Below are positions 12,220 through 49,957 of a stretch of 64,000 nt of DNA, one piece after another. Position numbers and translations under genes: made by a program. The stretch lies in contig NZ_FNJR01000017.1 in NCBI RefSeq assembly GCF_900104475.1, positions 1 to 64,000 of the forward strand. The letters run 5' to 3'. Below the pieces are notes generated by a model that was given only the letters and a program-made list of their open reading frames with translations, did not search any database and had not been told where the DNA came from. Source of the stretch: Actinopolyspora xinjiangensis (GTDB taxonomy: Bacteria; Actinomycetota; Actinomycetes; Mycobacteriales; Pseudonocardiaceae). Positions within the stretch are counted from its first letter, which is position 1. The number at the start of each line of letters is the position of its first letter.

Positions 12220-12226
12220 CGGTACT

Positions 12227-12270: not shown

Positions 12271-12283
12271 CGTCCGGATTCCC

Positions 12284-35130: not shown

Positions 35131-35171
35131 TCCGGGGCGACGTACCGAGCTCGGTAACTCGGAGGAGCGGT

Positions 35172-35792: not shown

Positions 35793-36208
35793 GGGCGAAG
35801 GACAGCTACGGGCCTACCGGGACAGTGCGCGAGGACGATTCCTCGCCAGGTGAAGGGGGCAGCGCGACGGTCCCGGCCGCGATGCTGACGCTGGCGGTGC
35901 TCGCGGTGTGCTGGCTCGGAGTCCAGTTCGGCGCTGTCGTCGTGGCCGGGCATCGGGCGCGGGGAGCGGCCGATCTCGCGGCGCTGGCAGCGGCGGCGTA
36001 CGCCCCCGAAGGGCAGTGGGTGGCCTGCTCTCGGGCGGCGGAGGTGACCCGGCGCATGAATCTCGAATTGTCCGACTGCCGGGTACGAGGTCGGCGGGCA
36101 TGGGTACACACCGAGTTGGCAGTACCGGGCGCGCCACAGGGAGCGTGGCTCGTGACGGGCCGTGCACTGGCTGGTCCGATCGAGGGGCGCGGGGCGGCAC
36201 AGGAATAA
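35789..36208 (+). CDS. TadE-like pseudopilin, Rv3654c family
   Basis: The 139-residue protein overlaps the previous stop (GTGA). EGGSATVPAAMLTLAVLAVCWLGVQFGAVVVAGHRARGAADLAALAAA is the Rv3654c-type signature: prepilin-like helix then an ARGAADLAAL helix. The +5 glutamate of pilins is replaced by proline here, so it may not be processed in the same way. Two cysteines (CSRAAE, DCRV) may form a disulfide outside the cell. It ends the tad operon. Confidence 0.87.
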   Translation: MRAKDSYGPTGTVREDDSSPGEGGSATVPAAMLTLAVLAVCWLGVQFGAVVVAGHRARGAADLAALAAAAYAPEGQWVACSRAAEVTRRMNLELSDCRVRGRRAWVHTELAVPGAPQGAWLVTGRALAGPIEGRGAAQE

Positions 36209-36580
36209 GCGGCTCGGAAGGACTGTTGTGAGACAAAGAGGTTCCCCACTCGGCTGTTGCCGAAGTGGGGAATCCCGAGGACGGACGGCTACTTGATCGG
36301 AAGCGCCGATCCGGTGTTGTGAGGGGTCGTGTGTATACGGAAATACGATCTCCGACTCCAGGGTGGGGAGCTCGGAGAGTCGCCGTTCGCGGCTCGATTG
36401 GTGGACAAGCTTTCCGGGGAATTGGCTCGAAGTCCGGAAAGAATGGTGTGCCAATCGTCGCACCCCTGGTTTTTCGGAGTGTCAGGACCGTGTTTAGCCG
36501 TCACGGTAAGTATACGCCGAGCACTCCGATGGGTGAATCGTTGGTCAACTGATGTTTTCGATACCTGTCAGAGGTGCTGC
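36209..36580. other. Boundary between tad operon and AT-richer accessory cluster
   Basis: No gene seen in 372 bp. It contains the tad terminator hairpin (36242-36272); beyond it the base composition falls and codon-like periodicity is lost. This is the left edge of the accessory cluster. Confidence 0.55.
36242..36272 (+). terminator. Terminator-like hairpin after the tad operon
   Basis: TTCCCCACT (36242-36250) pairs with AGTGGGGAA (36264-36272); an inner CGGC/GCCG stem with loop TGTT extends it. No T-run follows, but the stem is strong and correctly placed 33 bp after the last tad gene. Confidence 0.65.
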
Positions 36581-37768
36581 TCAGCTGGCCGCTCCAGAAG
36601 GGCTCCTGGTGTCGTCGTCGATTTTCTCAACAGGGGGACAGACCAAAGATCCGTGCTTCATTCCGTCGGGAGACCTGCCCCAACGGCGCATGGCCGGGAG
36701 CTCGACCCACCGGTAGAGAAGGTTGGCGAAGTACAGGGTGACCAGAAGCAGCACGGTGCTTACGCAAAGTCCCACGAACAATGACCAGCTCACGTTCTCG
36801 CCGAGCGCCTTGAGCGTGAAGTGGAGAATCAGGTAGTGCACCAGATAAAATGCAAAGGAAATCTCTCCGAGCCATATCATCCTCGGCCCCCGCAGCGGAG
36901 AAGGGGTTCCTCTCAGATCGGCCGTGGCGGCAGTGGCGATCACCATACTCAGGGGGATGGCCGCGACCGTGGTCATGCCGTATTCCGGTGGAACCAGCAG
37001 TACCGCCAGGTAACCGACCGCGAAAATTCCGATGCTGGACGACCAGCTCAGCGAGATCCAACGACCGCTCAGAACGATCCGAGCCAGGAGTATCCCCAGT
37101 GTGAACTCCAGCATTCGCACGGGCGGTAAGTTGTATACACCCCAGAAGTGCCAGAAAGGCATGTCGGCCCAAACTATACCCGGACGTTCGGGGAAGACGA
37201 AGAAAACCAGGGATGTCCAGGCGAATATGGTTGCCGTGACGGCGGCGAACCAACCCCATAGATGTTCGGGTCGAATTTTTCTTATGAACCTGTAAATGTA
37301 AGGAAAACACAGATAGAAAACGAGTTCGCAACCCAGAGACCAGTTGGGGCCGTTCGTTCCGGTCAGCGCGTCCATTCGAGGAATCCAGGTATGCACCAGG
37401 AAGGCGCTTGGAATCACATGGAACAAGTTCAGGGCCTCGCCGGCTATGATCATCAGAAGTAAACCGGCGAACCAGGTCACAAGGTGGTTCGGAAATATTT
37501 TTACCACTCTGCGTCGCCAGAATGAACGAACCGTGTCGTTGTCCTTTAATGACCAGGTGAGAACAAATCCGCTGAGGATGAAGAAGAACTCGACTCCGAC
37601 CCAGCCTGCTGGATTGAATATTTGATAGAACGCCTCGTTCGTGTCAGGGCTGTTGAATATCCTGTTCTGTGCTATGTGTGATACGAACACCATCGCGGCC
37701 GCGATGAATCGTAATCCTGTGATCGACGGAATGTGGGTGGGTAACTCGGAACCTAATTTTGTTTTCAT
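36581..37768 (-). CDS. Acyltransferase 3 (OafA/YrhL-type) membrane protein
   Basis: The 395-residue integral membrane protein has about ten hydrophobic helices. ITGLRFIAAAMVFVSHIAQN at residues 15-34 with the catalytic-type histidine, EFFFILSGFVLTWS, the SFWRRRVVKIFPNHLVTW segment and GPNWSLGCELVFYLCFPY are the family landmarks. Such enzymes O-acylate sugars or small molecules, often antibiotics. ATG 37768 follows AGGT by seven bases; a GTG three codons upstream is possible. Codons 5 and 9 are TTA, the rare leucine codon that in streptomycete-like bacteria makes expression depend on bldA tRNA. It is the last gene of the VOC-cupin-acyltransferase group. Confidence 0.9.
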   Translation of the reverse strand: MKTKLGSELPTHIPSITGLRFIAAAMVFVSHIAQNRIFNSPDTNEAFYQIFNPAGWVGVEFFFILSGFVLTWSLKDNDTVRSFWRRRVVKIFPNHLVTWFAGLLLMIIAGEALNLFHVIPSAFLVHTWIPRMDALTGTNGPNWSLGCELVFYLCFPYIYRFIRKIRPEHLWGWFAAVTATIFAWTSLVFFVFPERPGIVWADMPFWHFWGVYNLPPVRMLEFTLGILLARIVLSGRWISLSWSSSIGIFAVGYLAVLLVPPEYGMTTVAAIPLSMVIATAATADLRGTPSPLRGPRMIWLGEISFAFYLVHYLILHFTLKALGENVSWSLFVGLCVSTVLLLVTLYFANLLYRWVELPAMRRWGRSPDGMKHGSLVCPPVEKIDDDTRSPSGAAS

Positions 37769-37802
37769 TGCTGGCACCTGTCCGTTCGATGCGGGTGAGA
37801 AT

Positions 37803-38279
37803 CTAGAAGTAGGACGATCTGTACTGGTCGTGCAACTCCGAGAATTTTTCCAGTTCTTCCTCCGTCGGAAGGGTCTTACTGTTCAGCAGGTCCGCGAGGC
37901 CGTAAAAAAACTTTTCTCTGTTTCTTCCGGGTGTGAAACTGATCAACAGCTCCGCTGGTGAGTCCGAGACGTTGGCGAATCCGTGGGGAATACCCGGCGG
38001 GACGTACAGTGCTGTTCCGGGCTTGGCGTTTATTTGCTCTGCTCCCCGAGTGAGTAGCACTTCGCCGGAGTGGACCACGAACAGTTCCGTCATTTCTTTG
38101 TGGAAATGTGGTTTGGCGTACGGACCGTTGGGAGCGAGTGAGAGTCCGAACAGCCCCAGTTCGTTTCCGGTTTCGCCGGTGGGAACTATGATTTTGCAGA
38201 AGTTTTCCCCTATGTGGACGCCCTCGGCCTGCTCGGGGGTGCCGATATATGACTTCTTCTCGCTGGTGTAAAAAGTCAT
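37803..38279 (-). CDS. Single-domain cupin protein
   Basis: The 158-residue protein starts at ATG 38279. The cupin core is readable: KPHFHKEMTELFVVHSGEV (His-x-His and Glu ligands), GTALYVPPGIPHGFAN (third His), then a C-terminal helix ending EKFSELHDQYRSSYF. The fold is metal-binding, but substrate and reaction are unknown; epimerase, isomerase and dioxygenase roles all occur in this group. It starts ten bases after the VOC gene ends. Confidence 0.82.
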   Translation of the reverse strand: MTFYTSEKKSYIGTPEQAEGVHIGENFCKIIVPTGETGNELGLFGLSLAPNGPYAKPHFHKEMTELFVVHSGEVLLTRGAEQINAKPGTALYVPPGIPHGFANVSDSPAELLISFTPGRNREKFFYGLADLLNSKTLPTEEELEKFSELHDQYRSSYF

Positions 38280-38289
38280 GGTTTTCCGT

Positions 38290-38736
38290 TCAGTCGCGCT
38301 CGATGGCCCTGATCTGTTCTTCCAGTGGGGTGGGCGGTGGCACGTCGGGAGCCGGGACACCGTGCCGGAACGGGTGGTCCTGTGGCACCTCGACGATGTA
38401 GATCAGCACGCCGTCCGGATCTTTGATGTGCATCTCCCACAGACCCCACTTCTCTACCCGGGCTTCTCTGGCAGGGGAGACGCCGTTGGCCATCAGCTCG
38501 GCTCGCGCGGTCGCCAAGTTGCGAACCTGAAGCCAGATTCCCGGTTGTTCGTCCGGAGGGGTTTCGGAGCGTCCGACCAGTTCCAGGTGACCGCCCCCCA
38601 GGTGGAACACGGTGCCTCTCTCCGGACCACTGCCGAACTCCTGTGCCACGGGGAGTCCGAGTTTCTCACGATAGAATTCACGACTGGCTTCGGGATCGGT
38701 CGGGCGTAGCACGATCCTACTGGAAAGAATTTCCAT
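38290..38736 (-). CDS. VOC-superfamily (glyoxalase/bleomycin-resistance fold) protein
   Basis: The 148-residue protein (ATG 38736, GGAGAG six bases upstream) has paired beta-alpha-beta-beta-beta units: RIVLRPTDPEASREFYREKLGLPVAQEF and, in the second half, WEMHIKDPDGVLIYIVEVP. GGGHLELVG and the His-Glu positions could bind a metal. Members act as dioxygenases, isomerases or drug-binding resistance proteins. In a biosynthetic cluster with an exporter a self-protection role is as plausible as catalysis. Confidence 0.83.
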   Translation of the reverse strand: MEILSSRIVLRPTDPEASREFYREKLGLPVAQEFGSGPERGTVFHLGGGHLELVGRSETPPDEQPGIWLQVRNLATARAELMANGVSPAREARVEKWGLWEMHIKDPDGVLIYIVEVPQDHPFRHGVPAPDVPPPTPLEEQIRAIERD

Positions 38737-38770
38737 TCTGACTCTCCGAGAAAATGGTTCCATTGGTACG

Positions 38771-38817
38771 AAAAAGACGCCGTCCGCCGTTGGTGAATTA
38801 CTCGACAGACGGCGTCT
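38771..38817 (-). terminator. Rho-independent terminator after the MFS gene
   Basis: On the minus strand AGACGCCGTC (38817-38808) pairs with GACGGCGTCT (38784-38775), followed by TTTTT. It closes the psuG-HAD-MFS transcript 11 bases after the MFS stop, so the VOC-cupin-acyltransferase genes need read-through or their own promoter. Confidence 0.88.
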
Positions 38818-38827
38818 GAATCCGATG

Positions 38828-40249
38828 TCAGGAACTTGCCTCTACTTTTTTGCCGTACATTCCGAATGCTGCGATCAAAGTGCCCAGGACCGCCATGCTC
38901 GCGGAGAATCCGAACGTGATCAGGTAGTTTCCTGGATCGGGGGCGTGCCCGAGGATGAGTACCAGAACGGCCAGACCCAGTGCGCTGAAGACGTATTGAC
39001 TCGTGGTGAGCATCGCCGCTCCAACGCCTTGGTGGTCGCTGGGGATGTCCGAAGTCGCCGAGATGAACAGCGCGGGGAAAGCGATACCGTTACCAAGTCC
39101 GGACAGGAGCAGGCCCGGAAGCATACCGATCGCGTAGTTGTCGAAGTTGACGCAGGCCGCGATCAATGCCAACCCGAAGGCCGAGACGAGCAATCCGGTC
39201 ATCACCATGGCGCGAGCGCCCGCCTTGGGGATGATCCGGTCGGTGATGGCGTTTCCTACCAGGACCGTGATCGTCAGTGGCAGGAATCCGATACCCGCGG
39301 CCAGCGGTCCGTAGCCGTGCTCGTTCTGCAGGAAATGTGTAACGAGGAAGAACTCCAGTCCGATGCTGAGTACGTAGCAGCCGACGATCCCGCAAGCCAC
39401 CATCAATGAACGGGTCCGCCACAGCTCGCGAGCGATGAGCGGGTTCTCGGAGGCTCGTTCCCTCGCGACCCAGATCCCAGCCAGTACGACGAATCCGACG
39501 GCGCCGGACAGCGTCGACGTGTCGGTGAGTCCGACCTCGCCGAGTTGGGTGAGCGCGAATACCAGGGACAGGATGGCGCCTGTACCGAGTGCGGCATTGA
39601 TTCCGTTCACGGGCCTGGATGCCTCCGAGTCCTTGCCCTTGGGGAGCAGGACCATACCGAAAGCGATTACCAGGATGACGATCGGAACGTTGACAAAGAA
39701 GATCAACTTCCAGGAGAAAGCGGTCAGCAGTCCACCGAGCACGACGCCACCGACAAGGCCGATGGCACCGACGGCTCCCCACACCGCCATAGCCCTGTTC
39801 CGCTTCGGTCCGGCAGGGAAGATTTTTTGTATCAGACCTAGGGTTGACGGGTCGAGCAAACCTGCGCCGATTCCCTGGAAAGCCCGTGCTATGACGAGGG
39901 TGGCGAAATTGTCAGCCATGCCCGCGGCCAATGAGCCTATTCCGAAAAGCCCCGTGGAAAGGAGGAAGACGCGCCCGGCCCCGAACCTGTCGCCGATACG
40001 ACCTCCCACGAGGAGAAAACCGGCGAAGAGGATAGCGTAAGCACTGACGACCCATTGCAGCCTGTTGTCGCTCAGGGCGAGATCGTTACCGATACTTGGC
40101 AGCGCCACGTAAACGATGGAGAAATCCAGGGTGGCCAGGAACAGACCGCAGCCGAGTACGGCCAGAGCCAATACTTGGAGCCGGCTCATCTTCGACGAAT
40201 CGGGGTCTGTAGTATTGCTCGCTGGACTCGCGGTCGTTTCCGCAGTCAT
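38828..40249 (-). CDS. MFS multidrug-type exporter (DHA2/EmrB-like)
   Basis: The 473-residue permease has at least 12, probably 14, hydrophobic helices. Family motifs: LDFSIVYVALPSIGNDL in the first helix region, motif A GGRIGDRFGAGRVF near residue 82, RAFQGIGAGLLDPSTLGLI, and motif C-like GAIGLVGGVVLGGLL. Drug:proton antiporters of this type commonly export the product of the surrounding cluster. ATG 40249 follows GGAGAG. It lies 27 bp after the HAD phosphatase gene. Confidence 0.92.
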   Translation of the reverse strand: MTAETTASPASNTTDPDSSKMSRLQVLALAVLGCGLFLATLDFSIVYVALPSIGNDLALSDNRLQWVVSAYAILFAGFLLVGGRIGDRFGAGRVFLLSTGLFGIGSLAAGMADNFATLVIARAFQGIGAGLLDPSTLGLIQKIFPAGPKRNRAMAVWGAVGAIGLVGGVVLGGLLTAFSWKLIFFVNVPIVILVIAFGMVLLPKGKDSEASRPVNGINAALGTGAILSLVFALTQLGEVGLTDTSTLSGAVGFVVLAGIWVARERASENPLIARELWRTRSLMVACGIVGCYVLSIGLEFFLVTHFLQNEHGYGPLAAGIGFLPLTITVLVGNAITDRIIPKAGARAMVMTGLLVSAFGLALIAACVNFDNYAIGMLPGLLLSGLGNGIAFPALFISATSDIPSDHQGVGAAMLTTSQYVFSALGLAVLVLILGHAPDPGNYLITFGFSASMAVLGTLIAAFGMYGKKVEASS

Positions 40250-40276
40250 TTTCTCTCCATTTGTGGAATAGATATG

Positions 40277-40948
40277 TCAGGATACGAATGCTGATTCGGT
40301 GTCGCACGCATTTACGACTGCCATGAAATCGTCACAGCACGTGACACCGTTCAATTTGTTCAGTTCGGAGCGCGGAGCGACTCCGTAAGTGACCGCAACC
40401 GCGCCCATGCCGGCCTCCCGTGCCATTTGCATATCGCTGACGGTGTCGCCGACGTAGACGCACTCCTGGACGGGAACTCCCAGCTCGTAAGCGCTGCGTT
40501 GTCCCATCTCCGGGTTCGGTTTTCCTCGTGACACCTTGTCGTGCCCGACCACCACGTCGAAAAAATCACGGATCTCCATCGCCGACAATAAAGCTTCGGC
40601 GGTAGGGGTGATTTTTGAGGTGCCAACCGCCAGTTTGGCACCGCTGTCACGCAGTATCCGTAGCCCCTCCACCACCGATGGGTACAGCAACTCGGTCTTT
40701 TTGCCGATCACTCGCTGCTCGAAAAGTTCACGGTAGCGGGTCACGGCCGATTCGGTTTCGCTGTCTTCCTCTCGCTTTCCCAGCAGTTCACCGAACGACT
40801 CCTCGAGCGGCCTTCCCACCGTTTTCGCCGCTTGTTCGGGGGTTACGGTCACCCCGAACTCCGCCGCGACCTCGACGAGTAATTCCGCGATCGCCGCTGG
40901 TGTGTCGGCCAGCGTGCCGTCCAGGTCGAATACGATCGCACGTGTCAT
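40277..40948 (-). CDS. HAD-superfamily phosphatase paired with PsuG
   Basis: The 223-residue protein is a phosphoglycolate-phosphatase-like HAD enzyme with FDLDGTLAD (motif I), VGTSKI (motif II), KVSRGKPNP (motif III lysine) and [10 protein letters not shown] (motif IV). Its ATG overlaps the psuG stop (ATGA). PsuG/HAD pairs occur in C-glycoside pathways such as alnumycin (AlnA/AlnB) and in indigoidine loci (IndA/IndB), where the HAD member removes the 5'-phosphate after C-C bond formation. The same reaction, pseudouridine 5'-phosphate to pseudouridine, is my inference here. Confidence 0.87.
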
Positions 40949-41871
40949 CGACGCTCACTCCTCTGGTTCGAGTAGGACACCGCCAGCTGTCCGGCCACAT
41001 CCGCTGTGGAAATCAGTACCGCTCGATTGGCTTGCGAGCTCTTGCCCTCGGTCGCCTTGGAGACCGCCTTCATCAGGTAGGGAGTGATGGCGGCGCCAGT
41101 GATCCCTTCGGAATCGGCTTCCTCGAGAGCGCGAGTGATGACGCTTTCCATCATTTCGCTGTCCAGCGCGTCCTCTTCGGGGATAGGGCTGGTAACCAGC
41201 GGTCCGCCGGGAAGTCCGGTTTGCCAGTGCATGTCGACTGCCCGCGCCACGAGGTCCATGTCGTCCAGCCGCTGCGGGTTGCGGAAGCCGCTCGAACGGC
41301 AGTAGAACGCCGGGAAGTCGTCACACCGGTATCCCAGAACCGGCACTCCGACGGTCTCCAGATACTCGAGGGTGAGCCCGAGATCCAGAACGCTCTTCGC
41401 GCCCGCGCAAACCACCGCTACCTTGCTGCGAGTGAACTGCACGAGATCAGCGGAGATGTCGAAGGTCGTCGAAGCTCCTCGGTGCACCCCGCCGATCCCG
41501 GCTGTTGAGAAAACCGGGATTCCAGCCATGTCCGCGGCTACCAATGTGGAAGCCACCGTGGTCGCTCCCAGGCCGTTCCCCGCCATCACGGCCCCGATGT
41601 CTCGGCTGCTCACCTTGGGAACGCCGGTGGAGGTGCCCAGCCGTTCGACGTCTTTCTCCTCGAGTCCGACGACGAAACGACCATCCATGATGGCGATCGT
41701 CGCCGGAACGGCCCCGGAGTCACGCACCGCCTTTTCGATGGCGAATGCCGTTTCCACGTTGTTCGGGTAAGGCATCCCGTGCGCGATCACGGTGGATTCC
41801 AACGCGACAACCGGTCGTTGCTCGGCGAGCGCTTGGCTCACCTCGTCACTGATGCTCAGCAACTCGTTCAT
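40945..41871 (-). CDS. psuG: Pseudouridine-5'-phosphate glycosidase family protein (PsuG/IndA)
   Basis: The 308-residue protein starts at ATG 41871 (GGAG eight bases upstream). PsuG interconverts pseudouridine 5'-phosphate with uracil plus ribose 5-phosphate, with synthesis favoured in vitro. Family segments: [16 protein letters not shown] with catalytic-type Glu25, [16 protein letters not shown] with Lys86, [33 protein letters not shown] and [15 protein letters not shown]. Near the C-terminus the usual Asn-Asn pair of the family (ANxALVKNNA) reads [10 protein letters not shown] here, an active-site-region change. No pseudouridine kinase gene is present, which argues for synthesis rather than salvage. 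A strong promoter lies at 41959-41987. Confidence 0.93.
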
Positions 41872-41958
41872 CACTACCACTCCAGAGCTTGTTCGGTTCG
41901 CTTGCCTCGCCGGTTTACTACGTTTCGTGTTCAACCAGGTTCGCTCAATGACTACCCA

Positions 41959-41987
41959 AGAATAAAACCAACCGTATGGTATGTCAA
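41959..41987 (-). promoter_or_regulatory. psuG promoter with embedded 14-bp operator-like element
   Basis: On the minus strand TTGACA (41987-41982) and TATTCT (41964-41959) are separated by 17 bp. The spacer contains ACCATACGGTTGGT (41980-41967), whose ends are inverted (ACCA/TGGT). The same element in the same position occurs at 49958-49986. A repressor bound there would block RNA polymerase. The leader to the psuG ATG would be about 80 nt. Confidence 0.75.
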
Positions 41988-42198
41988 CTGTATCGTACTG
42001 GTTGGGCTGTTCGCTCCGTGTTGGGGGTGTCTTGTGGTGCGCCGATCTTGAATCGGCGGCCTCTGGCAGTAATATGCCTGTTCATAGGGGTTTACCGTCG
42101 CTCGGTTCGTGTCGTTGTCGAGTGGCGCACCCACTGGAGGGCGCTATCTGGAGGGGTATGTAGGTTACTGGGTGGAGCGGAGCAACCCGCTCCACCCA

Positions 42199-42221
42199 AC
42201 TATAAAAAAACCAAATGGTTT
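42199..42221 (-). promoter_or_regulatory. AT-rich palindromic element with possible -10 box
   Basis: AAACCA-AA-TGGTTT (42208-42221) is a perfect 14-bp palindrome resembling the outer halves of the two 14-bp elements. On the minus strand it is followed by TATAGT (42204-42199), but no good -35 box lies 17 bp upstream. A strong hairpin (42170-42197) would start the transcript. Function uncertain. Confidence 0.4.
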
Positions 42222-42349
42222 CTTTTTATGGTAGTGTTCGACCCTACTGCCCCTTCGGGGGACGGGGTAGGTCGGCCCGGACTGGCGCTCAGGGCGGCCT
42301 ACCGACAGGTGGACGGAGTCCAGGAGAGGCGATGGCCACCCGGCGGGGA

Positions 42350-42910
42350 TCAGCCCACGACGGATTCGCCCGGCTGTCGTCGCAACGACTTCGTCCGATC
42401 CGAAGTCACCTTCGGAACCCGCTCGATCCGGTGAAAGCCGCGTTCCTGGTAGATCAGTGGGCGACCGTCGCAGGTGTCCACTTCCCGTACTCGTCCCAGA
42501 AGGATGGTGTGATCACCGGCGTCGATGGTCCTTTCCCTGCCGCAGTGCACACGGGCCAACGCGTCCGGGTGAACCGGGACCCCGCCGCGGCCGGCTATGA
42601 ATCCCGTTTCGGCGAACCGCTTGGCTCCCGGTGTGGAGAAGTGCACTGCCAAGTCGCGTTGCTCCTCGTTGAGGAGGTTGATCGCGAATTCCGAGCAAGT
42701 CGAGAAGATCGGGTGCGTGCGTGCGGACTTGTCCTGGCACACCAGCAACAACGGTGGATCCATCGAAACCGAGATCACCGTGCTGGCGGCGAAACCGACC
42801 GGTTCTCCGTCCTCGTCCAGGGAGGTGGCCAGGGTCACGCTCGCCGCGAGTGATGCCATGGCTTCCTTGAAGATCGGAACCAGATCTGTTTCCGACTGTA
42901 ATCGCTGCAT
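42350..42910 (-). CDS. Flavin reductase (HpaC/RutF-like)
   Basis: The 186-residue protein has the flavin-reductase split barrel: FKEAMASLAASVTLATSLDEDGEPVGFAASTVISVSMDPPLLLVCQ, SEFAINLLNEEQRDLA, FSTPGAKRF, and DHTILLGRVREVDTCDGRPLIYQERGFHRI. It would supply reduced FMN/FAD to a partner monooxygenase; the acyl-CoA-dehydrogenase-fold enzyme two genes upstream is the obvious candidate. Its ATG shares one base with the amidohydrolase stop (TGATG). It is the last gene of the six-gene operon. Confidence 0.9.
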   Translation of the reverse strand: MQRLQSETDLVPIFKEAMASLAASVTLATSLDEDGEPVGFAASTVISVSMDPPLLLVCQDKSARTHPIFSTCSEFAINLLNEEQRDLAVHFSTPGAKRFAETGFIAGRGGVPVHPDALARVHCGRERTIDAGDHTILLGRVREVDTCDGRPLIYQERGFHRIERVPKVTSDRTKSLRRQPGESVVG

Positions 42911-44490
42911 CAGCGAAACTCCTTCGCGAGTCGCTTCCCGTTGATTGGCGGGTGGCTCTGTTCGAGTATTTCCTTGTCCGTGCTACTCGCCGGTGGAAGA
43001 ATCTTTTCGGAACTCCCGGTGGGAGCTTCTCGGATACTTTCCTCCTGGTCATCGTTCGTTTTCGACGGAGTGGAGTTCTCGTAGCGCCCGAGGGGGAGCC
43101 AGGTGCCGTTCGGTTCTCCGAAGCGCATCTCTCCTTCAGCTGTCCGTTCGAAGACGGTTTCACCGCGTCGGATCGTGCGTTCGACCACCCCGGTGAAGAT
43201 CCACCCCTGGTAGGCGGACCACCCGCACAGCGATTGAATGGATGAGTGGTTGAGTGACCACCGGTGGCTCGGATCGAAGATGACCAGGTCGGCATCGTAG
43301 CCGGCGGCTATCCTTCCCTTCCTGCCGAGCAGGCCGAACTTGCGAGCCGGTCCGTCGCTGAGCACTCGGGAGCAGATTCGCAGCAGGTCCTCGGTGTCGT
43401 GTTCCGGAAGGCGTGAACGAAGCCCGTTGAAAAGCGCGTGGAACAGCTCTTGAGTTCCGGGCAGCCCGGGGGGCGCTTCGTGAGGAAGGAGCATCTTGCA
43501 CTCCTCCGGGTGAGGAGCGTGATCACTTCCCACCGTCATCGCTTCCCCGTTGATCACAGCTGACCACAGTCTGTCCTGGTCCGCCTTGTCCCGAATGGCG
43601 GGGCTGAGTCGGATGCGGGCGCCACAGCGCTCGGTGTCGTTCGCCGTGAAGGAAAGATGATGAGTTGTCACCTCGAAGGTGATGGGTAGACCTTCCGCCG
43701 CGGCCGCACTGAGCATGTCGACTTCTTCCTTGCTGGAGACATGCACGATGTGCGCTGAAACGCCGTAACGCCGCACGAGTTCGATCAGACCGGCCACCGC
43801 CACGATGGCGCCGCTGCGCGGACGATGGGCCTCGTAGTCCCGGTACTCCCTGGGTTCACCGTGCCAACGGTCCAGCATGGAGAAGATCGCGTCGTGCTCG
43901 GCGTGGAACAGCAATCGCAGATCGCGCTCCGCGCTCACTCGAAACAGCTCCTCCAGTGATTCGCGGTCACGCAATACGTGGGAGGCCGTGTGGTGGCTCG
44001 TCAGAAACGCCTTCGCAGAGTTGGCCTCTTCCGGAGCAAAAGCACCCACACCTCCGACGTTCCGCGGATCGACACCAGCGTGAAAACGGAAGTCCACCAG
44101 ACTTCCGCCGGAGATGATCCCGTGCTTGAAGTGGGCATCCGCCGGCGTGAACATCGGCGGTTCCGTGTTCGGCATGTCCATCACGGTGGTGATGCCGCCG
44201 CTGACGGCGGCCCTCGAACCGTGCTGCCAAGTTTCCTTGTTCGTCATTCCCGGAGTGCGGAAGTGCACGTGAGAGTCGATCATCCCGGGTAGGACGTACT
44301 TCCCCTTAGCGTTCAGGAACTCATAGGCAGAAGTGGCACTTTCCGGGGGAAGTACAGCCACTATTCTCCCGTTGCGGATTCCCAGGTCCGCGGGTCGGAC
44401 ATCCCGGTGAGTCACCACGGTTCCACCGTGGATCACCAAATCGTAGTTCTCGGTGTCTATCTGCCCTGCCAATTCTTTCAACTCAGCCAT
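42910..44490 (-). CDS. Dihydroorotase/dihydropyrimidinase-like cyclic amidohydrolase
   Basis: The 526-residue protein is a metal-dependent amidohydrolase of the DHOase/allantoinase/hydantoinase group. Visible landmarks: GMIDSHVHFRTPG with metal ligands H74 and H76, NSAKAFL with K160 as the candidate carbamylated lysine, LLFHAEHD, SAHIVHVSS and GSDHAPHPEECK with the catalytic Asp. Such enzymes open or close cyclic ureides, including reduced pyrimidines. A Ser/Glu-rich extension of about 65 residues after the barrel (from ENSTPSKTNDD) is not part of the family. Next to psuG it could act on the uracil-derived ring of a C-nucleoside. It overlaps the upstream gene by 13 bp. Confidence 0.88.
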   Translation of the reverse strand: MAELKELAGQIDTENYDLVIHGGTVVTHRDVRPADLGIRNGRIVAVLPPESATSAYEFLNAKGKYVLPGMIDSHVHFRTPGMTNKETWQHGSRAAVSGGITTVMDMPNTEPPMFTPADAHFKHGIISGGSLVDFRFHAGVDPRNVGGVGAFAPEEANSAKAFLTSHHTASHVLRDRESLEELFRVSAERDLRLLFHAEHDAIFSMLDRWHGEPREYRDYEAHRPRSGAIVAVAGLIELVRRYGVSAHIVHVSSKEEVDMLSAAAAEGLPITFEVTTHHLSFTANDTERCGARIRLSPAIRDKADQDRLWSAVINGEAMTVGSDHAPHPEECKMLLPHEAPPGLPGTQELFHALFNGLRSRLPEHDTEDLLRICSRVLSDGPARKFGLLGRKGRIAAGYDADLVIFDPSHRWSLNHSSIQSLCGWSAYQGWIFTGVVERTIRRGETVFERTAEGEMRFGEPNGTWLPLGRYENSTPSKTNDDQEESIREAPTGSSEKILPPASSTDKEILEQSHPPINGKRLAKEFR

Positions 44491-45626
44491 GAGTTTCCCA
44501 CCAGTTCTTTGCTGAGGTCGTTGGTCGGCCCCATCAGCGCCACCGCGCGGGAGTCGTTGATCAGTTGATTTACCGGGTTGTCGGACACGTATCCGGCGCT
44601 TCCCAGCATTCGCGACAAGTTGATGATGACCTCTTCGGCGGTCTCCGAGGCGAAGATCTTGCTGTGCAACGTGGTGTTACCGGGCTCGTCCGAGACGCGG
44701 GAACCGGCGCGCTCGACCAGGCCACGGGCGGCCTCGACCCTGCCGCGCAGCTCCGCGAGACGGTGTCGCTGCGCCTGGTGCTCGAGCAGGTTCTTCTTCC
44801 GAGCTGTTTCGTAGCTCAGGTCCCAGGCCGCTTCGGCGATGCCCACGGACACCGCACCCAGGGAGGCACCGGAGCGTTTGACCTCGGCTATGACCCGGTG
44901 CGCCGCGTCGCGCGGTCCCAACAGTGAGTCAGGGGAAACGGTGCAGCCGGTAAGACGCACGAAGCCGGTCGCCGAGGCACGCATCCCGATGAGGTCCATA
45001 TCGGTGTCGGGCTCGATCCCCTCGCTGGTCGCGGGAACCAGAAAGAAGCTCTGCCCGGACGAGCCGTAGGAGAGGTCGTCCTCGACGTCCTCACCGGTTT
45101 GCGCGAGTATCAAGTACACATCGGCCAGCCCGGCCCCGGTGGTGAATGCCTTGCCGCCACTGACGAGCCAACTTCCGTCGGCCTGCTGTGTTGCCGTCGT
45201 AGCAAGATTCCTCTTGCTGGCACCGGCTCCGGACTCACTCCAGGCCGAGGCGGCGAGCCAGTCTCCCGAAGCCAGTGGGGGAAGAAGTTCGGCACGCTGC
45301 CTCGATGTTCCGAATTCGGCTATTCTGCTGCACACGGCCATGTGCTGGAACGCGATGATCGCCACCGAAGGATGGTGGTAGGCCAGTTCGGCCACGCGCC
45401 GATTGGCCTCCAGCGAGTCGGCTCCCGAACCGCCGTAGTACTTCGGCACCACCAATCCCGGTAACTCTGATTCACGTAAAGCGTGCAGCACTTCCGGTGC
45501 CAGCCGTCCGTCCCGGTCCGAGCGGGCGCGGTGCTCGTCGAGCACGGCGTAAAGTTGTTCCCAACCGATTCGCTGCCGCACGAGAGACTCGGTGGTGCGG
45601 ATCGAGGTCATGTCGGTGACAGCCAT
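44478..45626 (-). CDS. Acyl-CoA-dehydrogenase-fold flavoprotein
   Basis: The 382-residue product starts at ATG 45626 with GGAAGGAG five bases upstream. Landmarks are LPGLVVPKYYGGSGAD, SAWSESGAGASKRNLATTATQQADGSWLVSGGKAFTTGAG, TDMDLIGMRASATGFVRLTGC and RVEAARGLVERAG. The fold covers dehydrogenases and class D flavin monooxygenases that use flavin supplied by a reductase. A flavin reductase in the same operon and no CoA-ligase favour a monooxygenase, as an inference. The catalytic base of acyl-CoA dehydrogenases is not obvious. It overlaps the PrpF-like gene by 19 bp. Confidence 0.87.
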   Translation of the reverse strand: MAVTDMTSIRTTESLVRQRIGWEQLYAVLDEHRARSDRDGRLAPEVLHALRESELPGLVVPKYYGGSGADSLEANRRVAELAYHHPSVAIIAFQHMAVCSRIAEFGTSRQRAELLPPLASGDWLAASAWSESGAGASKRNLATTATQQADGSWLVSGGKAFTTGAGLADVYLILAQTGEDVEDDLSYGSSGQSFFLVPATSEGIEPDTDMDLIGMRASATGFVRLTGCTVSPDSLLGPRDAAHRVIAEVKRSGASLGAVSVGIAEAAWDLSYETARKKNLLEHQAQRHRLAELRGRVEAARGLVERAGSRVSDEPGNTTLHSKIFASETAEEVIINLSRMLGSAGYVSDNPVNQLINDSRAVALMGPTNDLSKELVGNSWLS

Positions 45627-46654
45627 AGCGACTCCTTCCCGCGAACATGTGGTTGCAGCGCTTTGATGTCCAACGCGCCTCGGAAGACCACTTCTTTGTG
45701 CGGCACGCTCGCCCACGACAACGTGCTCGTTATCCGGTTCCCCGACACCGCCGCGGTAGTCGTCACGGTGTTGCCCGGTGTTCGGATCAGCAGCGGTTCC
45801 TCTGGGTGTGCGGCTCTTCCCGCCAATTGGTTCGGGATGGTTCCCTCGATCTTGCTCGCCACACCCAGGCAGACAGCCCCGGTGAGCGCGATCGTCGGAT
45901 GCCACGAGGGCACCGAGATGGCACGGACCGCGACGGTTCCGTCGCCGTCCGGAAGCAGCGCGGCGACTTTCGGAAAAGCACCGTTCTCCGGGAAGCCGCG
46001 TTTCAGGGCGACCTCCCGCCGGACATCGTTCATCTTCTCGTAGAGATCCGGGTTTTCTCCCAGCAGTTCGGAGACGTCGTTCACACCGAACTCTTCGGCC
46101 GAAACGAATACGTACGGGTTTCCTACCGAAATCTCGCTGATCCTCGCGATGCCCAGTGGTAGACTGAGCCCGGTAACCGGTTCCCCTCCGGAGAGAAGGC
46201 TGCCCAGTCGTATCTCCGGATGATGCAGAAAATGCGCGGTGAAAGTAACACGGTCCCGGACGGACTCATCCACCTCGCAAACCATTTGATCACCGTTGTT
46301 GAGGACTCGCACCCTGGCCCGGATTCCGGGTGCGAGTCGATCGATCCAGCCGAGCCTGCTGGCTACGACGGTGGAGGCCAATACCGAGTGCCCACAACTG
46401 CCCCGCAGATCGAATTCCATCGGATCATTGGGGAGGACCTGGACGAACTGGTAGTCCAGGTCGAAAAGAGGATGCTCGGACATGGCTATCAACGCGATCT
46501 TCGTGATCGAGTCGAATCCTTGCTCGGTCAACCACTCCCTGGCATCCCGCAAGGCGTACCGTAACTCGGTTTCGCTCTCGGGAAGCGAATCGGAGCTGAG
46601 AACGAGTGTAGGACTCGGTGCACCGGCCGCATAGGCCACGTGGGCCAGCATCAA
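45608..46654 (-). CDS. PrpF-family isomerase (diaminopimelate-epimerase fold)
   Basis: The 348-residue protein is of the PrpF/4-oxalomesaconate-tautomerase type. AYAAGAPSPTLVLSSDSLPES near residue 8, the Cys motif LRGSCGHSVLAS near residue 83 and the second-half block WHPTIALTGAVCLGVASKIEGTIPNQLAG are visible. Characterised members shift double bonds in unsaturated di- and tricarboxylates. In this operon it may isomerise an unsaturated acid made after ring opening. Its start overlaps the asparagine-synthetase-type gene (ATGA). Confidence 0.85.
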   Translation of the reverse strand: MMLAHVAYAAGAPSPTLVLSSDSLPESETELRYALRDAREWLTEQGFDSITKIALIAMSEHPLFDLDYQFVQVLPNDPMEFDLRGSCGHSVLASTVVASRLGWIDRLAPGIRARVRVLNNGDQMVCEVDESVRDRVTFTAHFLHHPEIRLGSLLSGGEPVTGLSLPLGIARISEISVGNPYVFVSAEEFGVNDVSELLGENPDLYEKMNDVRREVALKRGFPENGAFPKVAALLPDGDGTVAVRAISVPSWHPTIALTGAVCLGVASKIEGTIPNQLAGRAAHPEEPLLIRTPGNTVTTTAAVSGNRITSTLSWASVPHKEVVFRGALDIKALQPHVRGKESLWLSPT

Positions 46655-48456
46655 ACCACCTCTCTCGAGACCGTCTCGTGCCGGGTGCGTTCGTGCGCGA
46701 ACTGCTTGACCCAGAGCTGGTGAACCATCAGTGACCAGATACTCAGCGCGGTTTCGTCCGATGGATGTGCGATTTGTCGTTTAATCAAACCGTTCACCGC
46801 GGTGGGGTCGAGCTGACCGGTCGCCGCGAGCTCGCCCGAGGACAACGTGTCCCTGGCGAAGTCGAGCAGACGATTCCCCTCGGTGAGCATCGAGGTGATC
46901 GGTAATGTGAACGGCTGTTTGGGTCGATTCAACACCGATTCAGGGAGGCGACCGCGTGCCCCGGCGTACAGCGCGCGTTTCCCCTCCTGCCCCCGAATTC
47001 GGTAGTCGTCCGGCAAACCGCGCGCCAGTCCGATCACAGCGGGCTGGCAGAACGGCAAACGGGCCTCGACCGAGTGCGCCATGCTCAGGTGGTCCACTCT
47101 GCGCAGATGATAGGCGGGAAGTCTCTCCTCGACTTCCAGGTCGGTTATCGCTTCCAGCCTGTTCCCGGGAAAGTCCAGCAGTCGGTTTTCCAGCCGCTGC
47201 GCCGTTGTTTCCCGTGACTTCAGATATTCGCGGTAGTCCTCGGTGTAGATCTGACCGCGCAGCCGTGCGGGTACCGCGGCCAACGAGTCGACGTAGTTCG
47301 ACGCCCAGTCCGCACCGTCCCACAGGGCCTGACGCATGCGTCCGTATCCGCCGAAAATCTCGTCCGCCGCGTCACCGGTAACCGCCACCTTGAAGCCGTT
47401 CTGGTGTATGGAGCGAAAGAGGAGGAAAGTGCTCACAGTAATAGGATCGGCGTTGGGCTGGCCCAGGTGCCAAATGACTTCGTTTATCAGATCGGGGAAA
47501 CTCGCGGGGTCGGATTCGACCTGATGATAAGTTGTGCCGACCCGCTCCGCGACTTCGCGGGCGTACACGCGTTCGTCGAACGGCCAGTCGCCGGTGTAGG
47601 AGATGTTGAAGCTGTGCAGATTCGGCACGTCGTCCGCCAGCATCGCCGTTACCAGGCTCGAGTCCAGTCCACCGCTGGTGATGGCCGATACCGGCACGTC
47701 CCCGATCGTCAACCGCCTTGTCTCCAGCTCCAGCAGCTCGCGGACCGTTTCTCCCGCTTGCTGGAGGCTGCTGAAACTGTACTCCGACCGAGGAAGCGAA
47801 CGCCTGGAGACGCGCAGACCTTCGGACGGGCGGAACGTCGCGGTGGCCCCCCGCGGCAGAACCCGTACATCGGCGAACATCGTCTGTTCGCCGAAGGGGG
47901 TCTTGGTGGACAGGTAGGAGTCCAGGCCCTCCGGGTGGAGGTCACGGCTTGTTCCTGGCATGGCGAGCAGCGCCGGTAGTTCCGAGGAGAAGGAGAGCGT
48001 TTCCTCGCTCTCGTCCCAGTGGTAGTACAGCGGCTTCATGCCCGCTTCGTCCGTCGCGAGTACCAGCTGGGGGTCTTCCCGCATATCCATCAGGGCGATG
48101 GCGAACATGCCGTTCAGATGCTCGACGAAATCCAAGCCGTACTTGTGGTAGAGAGCCGGGATGATGGAGCCGTCGCACTCATCGGAAAAAGAATATCCCA
48201 TTCCCGCGAGTCGGTGTCGCAGCTCGCGATGATTGTATATCTCGCCGTTGAATACGACTTTGATGATGTTCCCCAGGTGGTACGGTTGTTCCCCGTGGTC
48301 CAGATCGACGATCGCCAGCCGGTTGTTCCCCAGGACCCACTCGTCCGTATTCTCGAAATTTTGGGAGTCGGGACCGCCGTGGCGTTGCAGCTCCGACAAT
48401 AATCGGATGCGTTCCGAAGGGAGTGCGCTCCCAAAATGTCCGTATATCCTACACAT
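46651..48456 (-). CDS. Asparagine synthetase-type glutamine amidotransferase
   Basis: The 601-residue protein has an N-terminal Ntn glutaminase domain with nucleophile Cys2 (MCRIYGHFGS), RHGGPDSQ and NGEIYNHREL. The C-terminal synthetase domain begins about residue 215 and carries the PP-loop SAITSGGLDSSLV and GDAADEIFGGYGRM. Both half reactions look intact, so it should use glutamine ammonia and ATP to amidate a carboxylate. In secondary-metabolite clusters such AsnB proteins form amides or are reused for amide-bond formation. Substrate unknown. It starts 12 bases after the bicupin gene. Confidence 0.9.
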   Translation of the reverse strand: MCRIYGHFGSALPSERIRLLSELQRHGGPDSQNFENTDEWVLGNNRLAIVDLDHGEQPYHLGNIIKVVFNGEIYNHRELRHRLAGMGYSFSDECDGSIIPALYHKYGLDFVEHLNGMFAIALMDMREDPQLVLATDEAGMKPLYYHWDESEETLSFSSELPALLAMPGTSRDLHPEGLDSYLSTKTPFGEQTMFADVRVLPRGATATFRPSEGLRVSRRSLPRSEYSFSSLQQAGETVRELLELETRRLTIGDVPVSAITSGGLDSSLVTAMLADDVPNLHSFNISYTGDWPFDERVYAREVAERVGTTYHQVESDPASFPDLINEVIWHLGQPNADPITVSTFLLFRSIHQNGFKVAVTGDAADEIFGGYGRMRQALWDGADWASNYVDSLAAVPARLRGQIYTEDYREYLKSRETTAQRLENRLLDFPGNRLEAITDLEVEERLPAYHLRRVDHLSMAHSVEARLPFCQPAVIGLARGLPDDYRIRGQEGKRALYAGARGRLPESVLNRPKQPFTLPITSMLTEGNRLLDFARDTLSSGELAATGQLDPTAVNGLIKRQIAHPSDETALSIWSLMVHQLWVKQFAHERTRHETVSREVV

Positions 48457-48468
48457 TCGTTCGTTACC

Positions 48469-49260
48469 TCACTTCACTTCGGTGGGGACGGAGGCTCGTT
48501 CGTACAGCACCTTGTCGAAGGGGGTCGGTCCGCCGCACGTCACGAACTCATCGGGCATCTCGTCGCTTCTGGGAAGCCGTGTTCCGTGCGGAACCCCGGG
48601 CGGAGCGAACAGGACGTCCCCCGCCTCGGCGGGGTACCAACCGTCCGCCAAGTAGAACTGCCCGGATCCGGAGAAAGCCATGAAAGCTTCTTCGCTCTCC
48701 GGATGGACGTGCACGTTGAAGGTCTGTCCTGGTTCCATGTGTCCGCAGTGCAGACACAGTCTGCTGCTCCCCGTCCCCGGCCAGAAGACGAAATTCATTA
48801 CCGCTGTTTCTTCGGACGGGTCCATTCCTTCTGTTCCGTAGAAATTTTTCAACTGTGTCTCATCGTTGTCCAAACGGTTGAATGTCCTCGGGTTTTCGCT
48901 CCGTTGCTCGTCGCCGCGCAGCGTGCTGCGCCAGACATAAACGTGCAGCCCGGTTTTTCCCGACAGCAGCTCCAGCGGTTGTCCGGTCGGCGAGTAAAGC
49001 GCCGCCCCCCGGTCCAGGACGTGATGGCCGTTGATCGTCTCGGCTTCCCCGGAACCGTCGAAAACTACGACGATGTTTTCCTCCGATGCCGATCGATCTA
49101 GTTTCCACTTCTCTTCGGGGGACATCCGAACGACGTTGAGGGCTATTTTCTCCGCGCCGGTGTGTGTGCCCACCGGTTCGGCTATGCTCCCTTCCGGGAT
49201 CGCGCGGTAATCAAAATCGGAATGCCTGAGAATGGCCGGTTTCGCGGGGCTGCTCACCAC
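48469..49260 (-). CDS. Bicupin protein, first gene of the six-gene operon
   Basis: I place the start at GTG 49260 because CAGGAG lies six bases upstream (263 residues); an ATG at 49443 is in frame and would add 61 residues but has no ribosome site. The N-terminal cupin (KIALNVVRMSPEEKW...NIVVVFDGSGEAET) lacks metal histidines. The C-terminal cupin keeps them: FNVHVHPESEEAFMAFSGSG and VLFAPPGVPHGT. CLHCGHMEPG precedes it. Fold gives no substrate. Possible roles are a metal-dependent oxygenase or isomerase on the pathway intermediate. Confidence 0.8.
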   Translation of the reverse strand: MVSSPAKPAILRHSDFDYRAIPEGSIAEPVGTHTGAEKIALNVVRMSPEEKWKLDRSASEENIVVVFDGSGEAETINGHHVLDRGAALYSPTGQPLELLSGKTGLHVYVWRSTLRGDEQRSENPRTFNRLDNDETQLKNFYGTEGMDPSEETAVMNFVFWPGTGSSRLCLHCGHMEPGQTFNVHVHPESEEAFMAFSGSGQFYLADGWYPAEAGDVLFAPPGVPHGTRLPRSDEMPDEFVTCGGPTPFDKVLYERASVPTEVK

Positions 49261-49534
49261 AATTTTCTCCTGGGACGTCGTGTCTCTCTTCGGATCGTTG
49301 TCGATTTTAATTTCTCCGCGGAGGAGTGGTAGCGCTCGTTTTTCGAACCGCTCCAAAAACTCTCGGGGCAGCTTCGGATCGCCGATCGCGTGGCCGCGTT
49401 CGGAGTTGTGCGGTATTCGGTGGAGAACTCCCACTCGCGCCATGCCGGGGCATGTCCGGTGTGTACCGCTGGATTCGGTTCTCGTGCGTTCGGCTTCGGA
49501 GTCCTGTCACCTCCTCTCGGTCCGAGCGAGGTTC

Positions 49535-49564
49535 AAACTACAAACCGGACATGCTGTTTGTCAA
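49535..49564 (-). promoter_or_regulatory. Promoter proximal to the bicupin operon
   Basis: On the minus strand TTGACA (49564-49559) and TAGTTT (49540-49535) are 18 bp apart. An inverted repeat ACAAAC...GTTTGT overlaps it, but the 14-bp element of the other two promoters is absent. Confidence 0.6.
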
Positions 49565-49807
49565 CTACTTTGTGCTGTTCCCGGGCCTGGTGGCTGTCTG
49601 CTCCGACACCGTTGCGGAGTGGTTCAAGCGGCGTGGTGTCGCTTCGGTGTGGTTCGTCCGGGGCTGTTTCGCGGGAACGCGCAGCGGGAAGGCGATCATT
49701 ACTCTGAGTCGCCCAAGGTGTCCTTGTTCTGCTGGTGTCGATATACTATTTTCGCAGTTCAAATGGGATAAATGATCCTCGGGAGTGTTGTGCTTCACCT
49801 ACTGTGG

Positions 49808-49821
49808 TCGATCATGATCGA
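49808..49821. promoter_or_regulatory. 14-bp perfect palindrome
   Basis: TCGATCATGATCGA is its own complement. It lies between the two minus-strand promoters and could be a binding site for a dimeric regulator; no partner copy was found elsewhere in the window. Confidence 0.35.
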
Positions 49822-49957
49822 TTACGCTTAGTCGTGTTCGAGGTGTTGTTGTCTCGTTGCCCCGGTCGCCTGGTGCCCCGGGGCGAGGTGGTGGTTCGGC
49901 GGTGGGGCTTTCGGGTGATTGACCTGTCTCGGCTGGGTGCTTCCATCAACTCCGCGT

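Follow-up and report, generated by a model that had tools for sequence, protein, structure and literature searches.

Where does a PsuG-type C-glycosynthase obtain its base when no NRPS is encoded beside it? This question is raised by a locus of Actinopolyspora xinjiangensis, which we analyzed within a window of 64,000 nucleotides (contig NZ_FNJR01000017.1). An ORF check of the window found twelve consecutive minus-strand ORFs (36,581 to 49,443), and Pfam agreed with the families that an initial annotation had named for them. They form two tight blocks, bicupin-AsnB-PrpF-ACAD-AmHyd-FlvRed (block A) and PsuG-HAD-MFS-VOC-cupin-AT3 (block B), with 0.4 kb between the flavin reductase gene and psuG (Table 1). 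The bicupin had been given 49,260 as its outer limit, whereas its ORF opens at 49,443; because its homologs are shorter, an internal start near 49,260 is nevertheless possible. The initial annotation had assigned block A to the remodeling of a finished C-nucleoside. We instead consider it probable, at about 0.7, that block A supplies a uracil-like base by an NRPS-free route and that block B C-ribosylates and exports it.

Table 1. The island, its twelve genes and a promoter-like site, by position in the window.
Feature	Position	Strand	Remarks
Inserted island	36058..50204 (approximate limits)	.	Tad-type genes on one side, a prim-pol gene on the other; basis: genus-mate homology break and low G+C
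AT3, acyltransferase-3 family membrane protein	36581..37777	-	PF01757, 119 bits; 45-62% identity in L074, L075, L203
Single-domain cupin	37803..38360	-	PF07883; 51-70% identity in L074, L075, L203
VOC/glyoxalase-fold protein	38290..38763	-	PF00903; 72-77% identity in L074, L075, L203
MFS exporter, DHA2-like	38828..40249	-	PF07690
HAD phosphatase	40277..40948	-	PF13419, 132 bits; 4-bp overlap with psuG
PsuG-type C-glycosynthase	40945..41934	-	PF04227 (Indigoidine_A), 395 bits
Promoter-like TTGACA-17-TATTCT upstream of psuG	41959..41987	-	10/12 consensus matches; weak evidence
FlvRed, flavin reductase	42350..42910	-	PF01613, 125 bits
AmHyd, dihydroorotase-like amidohydrolase (Amidohydro_1)	42910..44490	-	Nearest profile match dihydroorotase 2gwn
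ACAD-fold flavoprotein	44478..45626	-	Acyl-CoA dehydrogenase Pfam domains; usual catalytic Glu missing
PrpF-fold isomerase	45608..46654	-	PF04303; kin of 3-methylitaconate and oxalomesaconate isomerases
AsnB-type glutamine-dependent amidotransferase	46651..48456	-	GATase_7 and Asn_synthase
Bicupin	48469..49443	-	C-terminal cupin only scored by Pfam; conserved H245, H247, E252, H286

The twelve-gene cluster seems to be horizontally acquired DNA. Homology to the closest genus-mate (L169) ends at about 36,058 and picks up again at about 50,204, which delimits an island of roughly 14.1 kb, and all nine of the nine same-genus genomes compared hold an island-free site with the flanks together. In 2-kb windows, G+C is 0.57 to 0.63 between 36 and 50 kb versus 0.67 to 0.72 elsewhere. 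A search for repeats at the island ends gave none that were convincing, and a tRNA search found none at the island; terminator-like sites in it were fewer than in shuffles (8 versus 12.9), and promoter-like sites were not enriched (4 versus 2.9 expected). The full set of twelve genes also occurs in Streptomyces eurythermus and Streptomyces G1023, and eleven of the twelve in Actinokineospora enzanensis, where the flavin reductase was not found. Genes in the compared loci were called with a codon-usage script that misread some of them, such as psuG in L206 and L219.

Judged by its position in two phylogenetic trees, the island PsuG is a member of the biosynthetic C-glycosynthase clade. It groups with AlnA and the NRPS-linked and showdomycin-like PsuGs (support 97/94 and 98/94), separate from the other PsuGs of the family, which number 10 in the first tree and 6 in the second; the latter omits 10 earlier rows (6 NRPS-linked and 4 other family PsuGs). 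E. coli PsuG sits on a long branch just outside this clade. The NRPS label on 14 PsuG loci derives from one of them, L146 (A, T and TE domains), and from clustering, and L154 was counted as NRPS-linked in the residue comparison and second tree although a full NRPS was not seen there. Among solved chains, AlnA is the closest to the island PsuG, followed by E. coli PsuG, whose E31, K166 and N289 are all kept as E46, K180 and N303. The N289 equivalent is also kept in every other PsuG compared except AlnA and L137 and so does not single out the island's base.

The HAD gene adjoins psuG here, as in those compared PsuG loci that carry one, and the best NCBIfam matches of the MFS protein are drug-efflux models, although all among the matches listed fall below cut-off. 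A PsuG of this clade, an adjacent HAD phosphatase and an exporter are what a PsuG (YeiN)-type C-nucleoside cluster contains. Pfam and NCBIfam scans of the twelve genes found no PfkB-type kinase, NRPS or Rut-type oxidase, in agreement with the initial annotation, and no PKS was found in the island. Pseudouridine salvage would place a PfkB-type kinase beside a salvage-type PsuG, and neither is seen among the twelve genes. Pfam likewise found no AMP-binding or PP-binding domain in them, hence no NRPS of the IndC/MinA kind. The PsuG trees and locus comparison thus bear out the earlier view of a biosynthetic C-nucleoside cluster apart from both the family's salvage-type PsuGs and the NRPS-linked loci. 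The VOC gene proved useless as a cluster marker, as 116 of 394 class genomes match it.

The enzymes of block A are individually familiar. In AmHyd, residues H74, H76, K160, H196, H250 and D323 are conserved together with R78, N108 and H327 in at least 97% of 78 rows, and we take the last three to be the carboxylate-binding Arg/Asn/His triad of dihydroorotases. AmHyd therefore carries the metal ligands and triad of a canonical dihydroorotase, and the allantoinases 3hm7 and 8hfd differ from it at R78 and H327; the best 25 of 63 NCBIfam models all score below their curated cut-offs. We propose that it is the ring-closing enzyme. The ACAD-fold protein (start 45,626; a longer ORF start was judged too early) has Gly in the catalytic Glu column when aligned with 9w60 and so lacks the residue expected of an acyl-CoA dehydrogenase, and no conserved Glu was seen at the alternative base position among the variants listed. 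At least 97% of the 69 rows keep M365, G366 and P367. It is proposed to be a flavin-dependent oxygenase, with FlvRed as its presumed partner: a flavin reductase, from either of two unrelated families, occurs in 46 of 69 ACAD-bearing loci versus 1 of 11 ACAD-less loci, while the other 23, including that of A. enzanensis (L074), have none within reach. In PrpF, K52, C87 and C262 are shared by 97% or more of the 82 rows; oxalomesaconate tautomerase is its top NCBIfam match (below cut-off, as are both models listed), and its best structural-profile match is 3-methylitaconate isomerase. Cys2 of AsnB is found in the commonest N-termini. For the bicupin, an AlphaFold model predicts two beta-rich domains (mean pLDDT 77).

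Beyond the families, conserved residues, PsuG clade, modularity and repeated block association established by these comparisons, we infer the substrates, order of steps and product. Block A would build a uracil-like N-heterocycle from a small polycarboxylic acid without an NRPS or PKS: AsnB would convert a carboxylate to an amide, PrpF would shift or isomerize a C=C bond, AmHyd would cyclize the amide and carboxylate to an imide, and oxygenation of the ring would fall to the ACAD-fold enzyme with reduced flavin (and to the cupins). Ribose 5-phosphate would then be bound by PsuG as a Schiff base and linked through a C-C bond to the nucleophilic ring carbon, after which the HAD enzyme is expected to remove the 5'-phosphate, the MFS protein would export the product and AT3 may O-acylate it. 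Among the observations that count against this scheme, AsnB exceeds the cut-off for ordinary asparagine synthase (TIGR01536), and the module-linked PsuGs group weakly (76/86; 67/88).

Which ring would be made is less certain. One tentative and, in its details, rather unlikely route runs from aconitate by way of its amide to citrazinate (2,6-dioxopyridine-4-carboxylate, a deaza-orotate); we suggest it because aconitate amide is the carba-analog of carbamoyl-aspartate and MinB of minimycin reportedly acts on a base of this type. Since maleimide and 6-chlorouracil are given, in part of the published account, as compounds not used by E. coli PsuG (YeiN), a carboxylate beside the attacked carbon may need prior removal. 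A different heterocycle within the same two-block scheme is a serious contender at somewhat under even odds, namely an imide with a five-membered ring, as in showdomycin (maleimide or succinimide), or else a pyridone dicarboxylate derived from oxalomesaconate. The PrpF matches point that way, as does an HpaI aldolase found with the module at 20 of the 80 loci, but the maleimide result for YeiN argues against the imide, and the dihydroorotase-type residues would fit a six-membered ring.

A rival reading takes the blocks to be two unrelated neighboring clusters making separate metabolites. In its favor, two genomes of this genus (G150, G177) have block A by itself, and its closest relatives in the module tree (AsnB-PrpF-ACAD-amidohydrolase) lack PsuG. 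Against this, when PsuG was the sole criterion for choosing places (identity of 68% or more; 297 + 392 genomes), the module adjoined seven of eight, and the contig of the eighth ends first. The initial annotation had named independent scattering of the genes in relatives as evidence against itself; this is half borne out, as the module travels alone, but a PsuG of the island subtype without the module on an uncut contig was not seen in those genomes. Both blocks occur together in two orders, three genera and four branches of the module tree, where PsuG-bearing modules occupy four places and 4 changes are needed, forced by supported branches (SH-aLRT support only). Rows scored PsuG-less were checked by a genome PsuG search: the genomes of L038 and L079 contain a PsuG (58-61%) at an uninspected location, and that of L060 carries one at another locus (L074). 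The L048 module, wrongly scored PsuG-less in a tree built on 10-kb flanks, was corrected in a later one. These short flanks also gave the false impression that PsuG and the CysK-like gene exclude each other; over longer stretches, S. dioscori, S. tauricus, Streptomyces sp. M41, G789 and G884 each combine the PsuG block with CysE/CysK-like genes at a single locus. Two unrelated clusters are thus an improbable explanation.

Slightly less probable again is the remodeling proposed at the outset, in which uracil is first turned into pseudouridine by PsuG and HAD, and its pyrimidine is afterwards oxidized, opened, isomerized and amidated by block A. The uracil-contact Asn of E. coli is kept in PsuG, and the amidohydrolase family hydrolyzes cyclic ureides, but AsnB requires a free carboxylate, which pseudouridine does not have, and block A mostly lacks PsuG and keeps other company. 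The AsnB-PrpF-ACAD-amidohydrolase genes form a widespread module: they stand next to each other in 62 of the 80 named loci, mostly with no PsuG nearby, and of 38 module genomes checked, 31 gave no PsuG match at E ≤ 1e-95. A module so often found alone presumably makes something of its own; it does not exist to remodel pseudouridine and is better read as a base maker, so this part of the initial annotation is not supported. Some PsuG-less modules adjoin serine-acetyltransferase/cysteine-synthase-like genes; all three Paenibacillus loci place the module beside a xanthine/uracil-family (nucleobase-family) permease and an FMN reductase; Amycolatopsis-type loci add an aromatic hydroxylase and a berberine-type oxidase; and the ring hydroxylase of other loci is nearest to HpxO and to salicylate and 6-hydroxynicotinate monooxygenases. 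These neighbor labels come from scans of one or two proteins in each predicted-protein cluster, and the ATP-grasp label is poor (one relative at 9e-8; no Pfam match in L045, no NCBIfam match in L063). The TauD/HpaI and nitroreductase module types lack the bicupin and the latter also a close ACAD, so chemistry may differ among types.

The least probable reading is that the island is catabolic and serves to break down pseudouridine, ureides or pyridines. In its favor, catabolic relatives exist for PsuG, the amidohydrolase and the flavin reductase, the bicupin bears a weak resemblance (29 bits) to ureidoglycine aminohydrolase, Amycolatopsis-type loci carry those oxidative enzymes, and the Paenibacillus permease could import a substrate. 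Against it, the PsuG falls outside the clade formed by the other PsuGs of the family, glutamine and ATP are consumed by AsnB, the transporter in the window is of efflux type, and other loci pair the module with serine-acetyltransferase/cysteine-synthase-like genes.

If the two-block reading is true, a base route whose steps are carried out by single soluble enzymes would add another supply line, easily reconstituted in vitro, and the cluster would give nucleoside-antibiotic-like molecules with a uracil-like ring C-C bonded to ribose. A broader and doubtful extension is that AsnB-PrpF-ACAD-dihydroorotase constitutes a widespread, undescribed, carrier-protein-free pathway to a pseudo-nucleobase (deaza-orotate/2,6-dioxopyridine) that is joined to ribose by PsuG, perhaps to alanine by the serine-acetyltransferase/cysteine-synthase-like enzymes, or to both in one hybrid cluster; this would imply a combinatorial family of anti-nucleobase natural products. 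The module itself offers a mining hook for dozens of uncharacterized loci and raises the evolutionary question of why one C-ribosylation block joins four branches of the same base-making module.

Among the matches listed by full-text literature searches, which covered a minority of subscription papers, we recognized no published pathway with this gene set. A siderochelin cluster shared only words with ours (O-acetylserine, cupin, asparagine synthetase), and the available part of its text names no PrpF, dihydroorotase or acyl-CoA dehydrogenase. AmHyd and PrpF resemble dihydroorotase and the PrpF/LigU isomerases in family, metal ligands, Arg/Asn/His triad and isomerase Lys and Cys, but differ in their below-cut-off model scores and in being clustered with AsnB. 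Alnumycin's AlnA/AlnB offers the nearest solved chain to the island PsuG, AlnA, and an adjacent HAD partner is a shared feature; AlnA, however, lacks N289 and is reported to ribosylate a naphthoquinone (PMC7722734), and the island has no PKS. The showdomycin-like loci compared share the PsuG, HAD, MFS order and an ACAD-family gene. The showdomycin locus is described as having a disassociated NRPS (PMC8724604), whereas Pfam found no free-standing adenylation or carrier enzymes and no glutamine cyclase (transglutaminase-like or ectoine-synthase-like) in the twelve genes; such genes were seen in L152. The minimycin (oxazinomycin)/indigoidine loci, as far as that account describes them, comprise the NRPS MinA, C-glycosynthase MinB, HAD-DUF4243 protein MinC, UPRTase MinD and exporter MinT (PMC8724604). 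The PsuG-type C-glycosynthase, HAD phosphatase and exporter are common to both, but the island lacks the NRPS, UPRTase and DUF4243 fusion, and AsnB-PrpF-ACAD-amidohydrolase would supply the base instead; a 2,6-dioxopyridine-like base is reported for minimycin (PMC8724604) and is a guess for the island. As PsuG-type C-nucleoside antibiotics such as showdomycin and minimycin are reported to take their base from an NRPS (PMC8724604), the NRPS-free supply predicted here is best read as a new route within a known class of C-nucleoside clusters.

The initial annotation's claim of twelve consecutive minus-strand genes was borne out by ORF calls and Pfam matches, and the genes fall into two blocks. 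Block A, whose AsnB-PrpF-ACAD-AmHyd core we call the module, runs bicupin, AsnB, PrpF, acyl-CoA-dehydrogenase-fold protein (ACAD), dihydroorotase-like amidohydrolase (AmHyd) and flavin reductase, in which adjacent genes either overlap or are separated by 12 bp. Block B runs PsuG, HAD, MFS, VOC, cupin and acyltransferase-3. We propose, with a probability of roughly 0.7, that block A builds a uracil-like base without an NRPS and that block B joins this base to ribose. A promoter-like sequence precedes psuG, although matches of this kind occur at little above the expected frequency. The 5.04-Mb genome has one Indigoidine_A match in all.

The gene set is an island. G+C drops from about 0.70 to 0.57-0.63 across it, and homology with the closest genus-mate (L169) is interrupted there. 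Tad-type genes, a prim-pol gene and a helicase are contiguous in 9/9 same-genus genomes; the gap from the last TadE-like match to prim-pol measures 167-407 bp. Block A occurs at other sites in genus-mates G150 and G177 (57-70% identity per protein), in which the PsuG search found no match.

Positions of the gene set, its surroundings and related loci
Feature	Sequence	Coordinates	Strand	Observation
Blocks A and B	window	36,581-49,443	minus	twelve genes
Lowered G+C	window	36-50 kb		
Homology break	window	~36,058 to ~50,204		ends and restarts against L169
Left flank	window	28477-36208	plus	ParA-like and Tad (flp pilus)-type genes (our labels) directly left of island; same order in nine genus-mates
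PsuG locus	L147 (G117, same genus)	5127-10234		PsuG beside single-module-NRPS-like gene; block A absent there
PsuG locus	L137 (G093:C26)	9119-14785		PsuG beside DeoC-type aldolase, 3-dehydroquinate synthase II, amidohydrolase-2, AMP-binding enzyme
Stand-alone module	L110 (Paenibacillus alba)	5294-14435		Firmicute, with ARD-like cupin; also L111, L112

PsuG of some kind is present in 250 of 297 family genomes. Besides the window's PsuG, 24 places show 52-71% identity, and the others among the matches listed show 42-49%. Neighbourhoods were fetched for 20 of the 23 former places other than Actinokineospora enzanensis, also of the Pseudonocardiaceae; 14 have a single-module-NRPS neighbour, four a showdomycin-like set and one (L137) a DHQ-synthase-II/aldolase set, while no NRPS was seen in the fetched stretch of L154. 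These PsuGs form one clade with the window's PsuG and AlnA in two trees (97/94; 98/94), apart from the other family PsuGs sampled (10 and 6, respectively), and E. coli PsuG sits on a long branch just outside. Module-associated PsuGs lie on one side of a weakly supported branch (76/86; 67/88). All 11 compared keep E31, K166 and N289 (E. coli numbering), whose roles in the E. coli enzyme are described in PMC7722734. Among the rows of a separate comparison, N289 is absent in AlnA and L137 only. The L137 PsuG is biosynthetic and groups with AlnA (99/98); its locus perhaps yields a C-ribosylated aminohydroxybenzoate, by GriH/GriI logic.

A search with PsuG alone (E<=1e-122) matched seven of 392 Streptomyces genomes. 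S. eurythermus and G1023 hold all twelve genes, and S. griseoruber holds the set rearranged. S. dioscori, G789 and G884 carry PsuG-HAD-MFS-cupin, a large regulator-like gene and CysE/CysK-like genes, then block A; G768 starts the same way, its contig ending 6.9 kb past psuG. In the family search, the sole place besides the window with that PsuG identity was A. enzanensis. Thus seven of these eight PsuG-chosen places adjoin the module, the eighth being the cut contig of G768. In the reverse direction, the genomes of 38 of 80 module loci were searched for PsuG (E<=1e-95), and seven had a match anywhere in the genome, four close and three at 58-61%. Close PsuGs lie near the module in Streptomyces sp. 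M41, S. tauricus and S. dioscori; the fourth, A. enzanensis, was sampled through its PsuG-free locus L060, and its PsuG sits at L074. Among the 17 CysE/CysK-type genomes of the 38, three had a close PsuG and 14 had none.

In a tree of the four joined module proteins (30 rows, SH-aLRT), the eight PsuG-bearing rows amount to four changes, each forced by supported branches: the window with genus-mates; A. enzanensis with S. eurythermus and G1023; S. griseoruber; and the hybrid Streptomyces. Gain and loss of PsuG are indistinguishable in this tree. The recurrence of the PsuG-module coupling nevertheless argues for one pathway for both blocks. The hybrid loci, where a single block A is accompanied by the PsuG block as well as by CysE/CysK-like genes, are L206/L220 (S. 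dioscori), L207/L217, L201/L202/L216, L218 and L219; they may join one base to ribose and to alanine, or make a peptidyl nucleoside.

The module is widespread. PrpF matched in 28 of the 297 family genomes, and among 15 neighbourhoods of close matches, AsnB, PrpF, ACAD and AmHyd occur together in 10, three of the four in 3 (in one, L034, the ACAD is a distant relative elsewhere in the stretch) and fewer in 2. In a scan limited to a single genome for each species, 80 of the 90 loci confirmed were retained, from 77 strains (three of them twice). By our gene calls, the four core genes are adjacent in 62/80 and all six, bicupin to flavin reductase, in 26/80. Within 10-kb flanks, and with names from NCBIfam and Pfam matches of representatives only, the context is TauD dioxygenase, HpaI aldolase and a cysteine-synthase-like gene at 20 loci, a serine-acetyltransferase-like and a cysteine-synthase-like gene at 18, TetR/MFS at 7, nitroreductase at 7, a cysteine-synthase-like gene alone at 5, PsuG at 3 and other at 20. 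An FAD hydroxylase cluster occurs at 32/80; the structures nearest to the one member scanned include urate hydroxylase HpxO and the monooxygenases of salicylate and 6-hydroxynicotinate. At 3/3 Paenibacillus loci, the module adjoins a xanthine/uracil-family permease and an FMN reductase. The nitroreductase-type loci (L104, L105, L107-L109, L113, L115) have PrpF and mostly AsnB and AmHyd, lack a close ACAD and, in L105, include an MbnB/TglH/ChrH-family protein; there the module may act on a peptide scaffold.

Among active-site positions, AmHyd keeps six metal ligands plus R78, N108 and H327 (at least 97% of the 78 rows aligned). The R78 and H327 columns hold Arg and His in dihydroorotase 2gwn but not in allantoinases 3hm7 and 8hfd; in dihydroorotase, Arg, Asn and His hold the substrate carboxylate. 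PrpF keeps K52, C87 and C262 (at least 97% of the 82 rows aligned), and LigU uses the Lys and Cys as its catalytic pair. The ACAD-fold protein has Gly in the catalytic-Glu column, inside a conserved MGP motif, and a flavin reductase of either of two unrelated families accompanies 46/69 ACAD-bearing loci versus 1/11 others; the ACAD-fold protein is probably a flavin-dependent oxygenase.

In the proposed pathway, the base would be made before ribose attachment. AsnB would form an amide, PrpF would act on an aconitate-like polycarboxylate, and AmHyd would close the amide onto one carboxylate with another held in place. The mono-amide of aconitate corresponds to carbamoyl-aspartate as its carba-analogue, and cyclising this amide gives citrazinate, a 2,6-dioxopyridine. 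Flavin-dependent oxygenation and cupins could then tailor the ring before PsuG, HAD and MFS complete the route. This aconitate/citrazinate chemistry is a tentative and rather unlikely version of the scheme. According to PMC7722734, YeiN does not accept 6-chlorouracil, which counts against unmodified citrazinate, so decarboxylation may come first.

A literature search, with subscription papers and MIBiG outside its scope, recognised no published description of such a route, which would be a new means of base supply for PsuG-type C-nucleoside clusters. For minimycin, PMC8724604 reports that an NRPS releases a glutamine product, cyclised and tautomerised, which MinB takes as its substrate.
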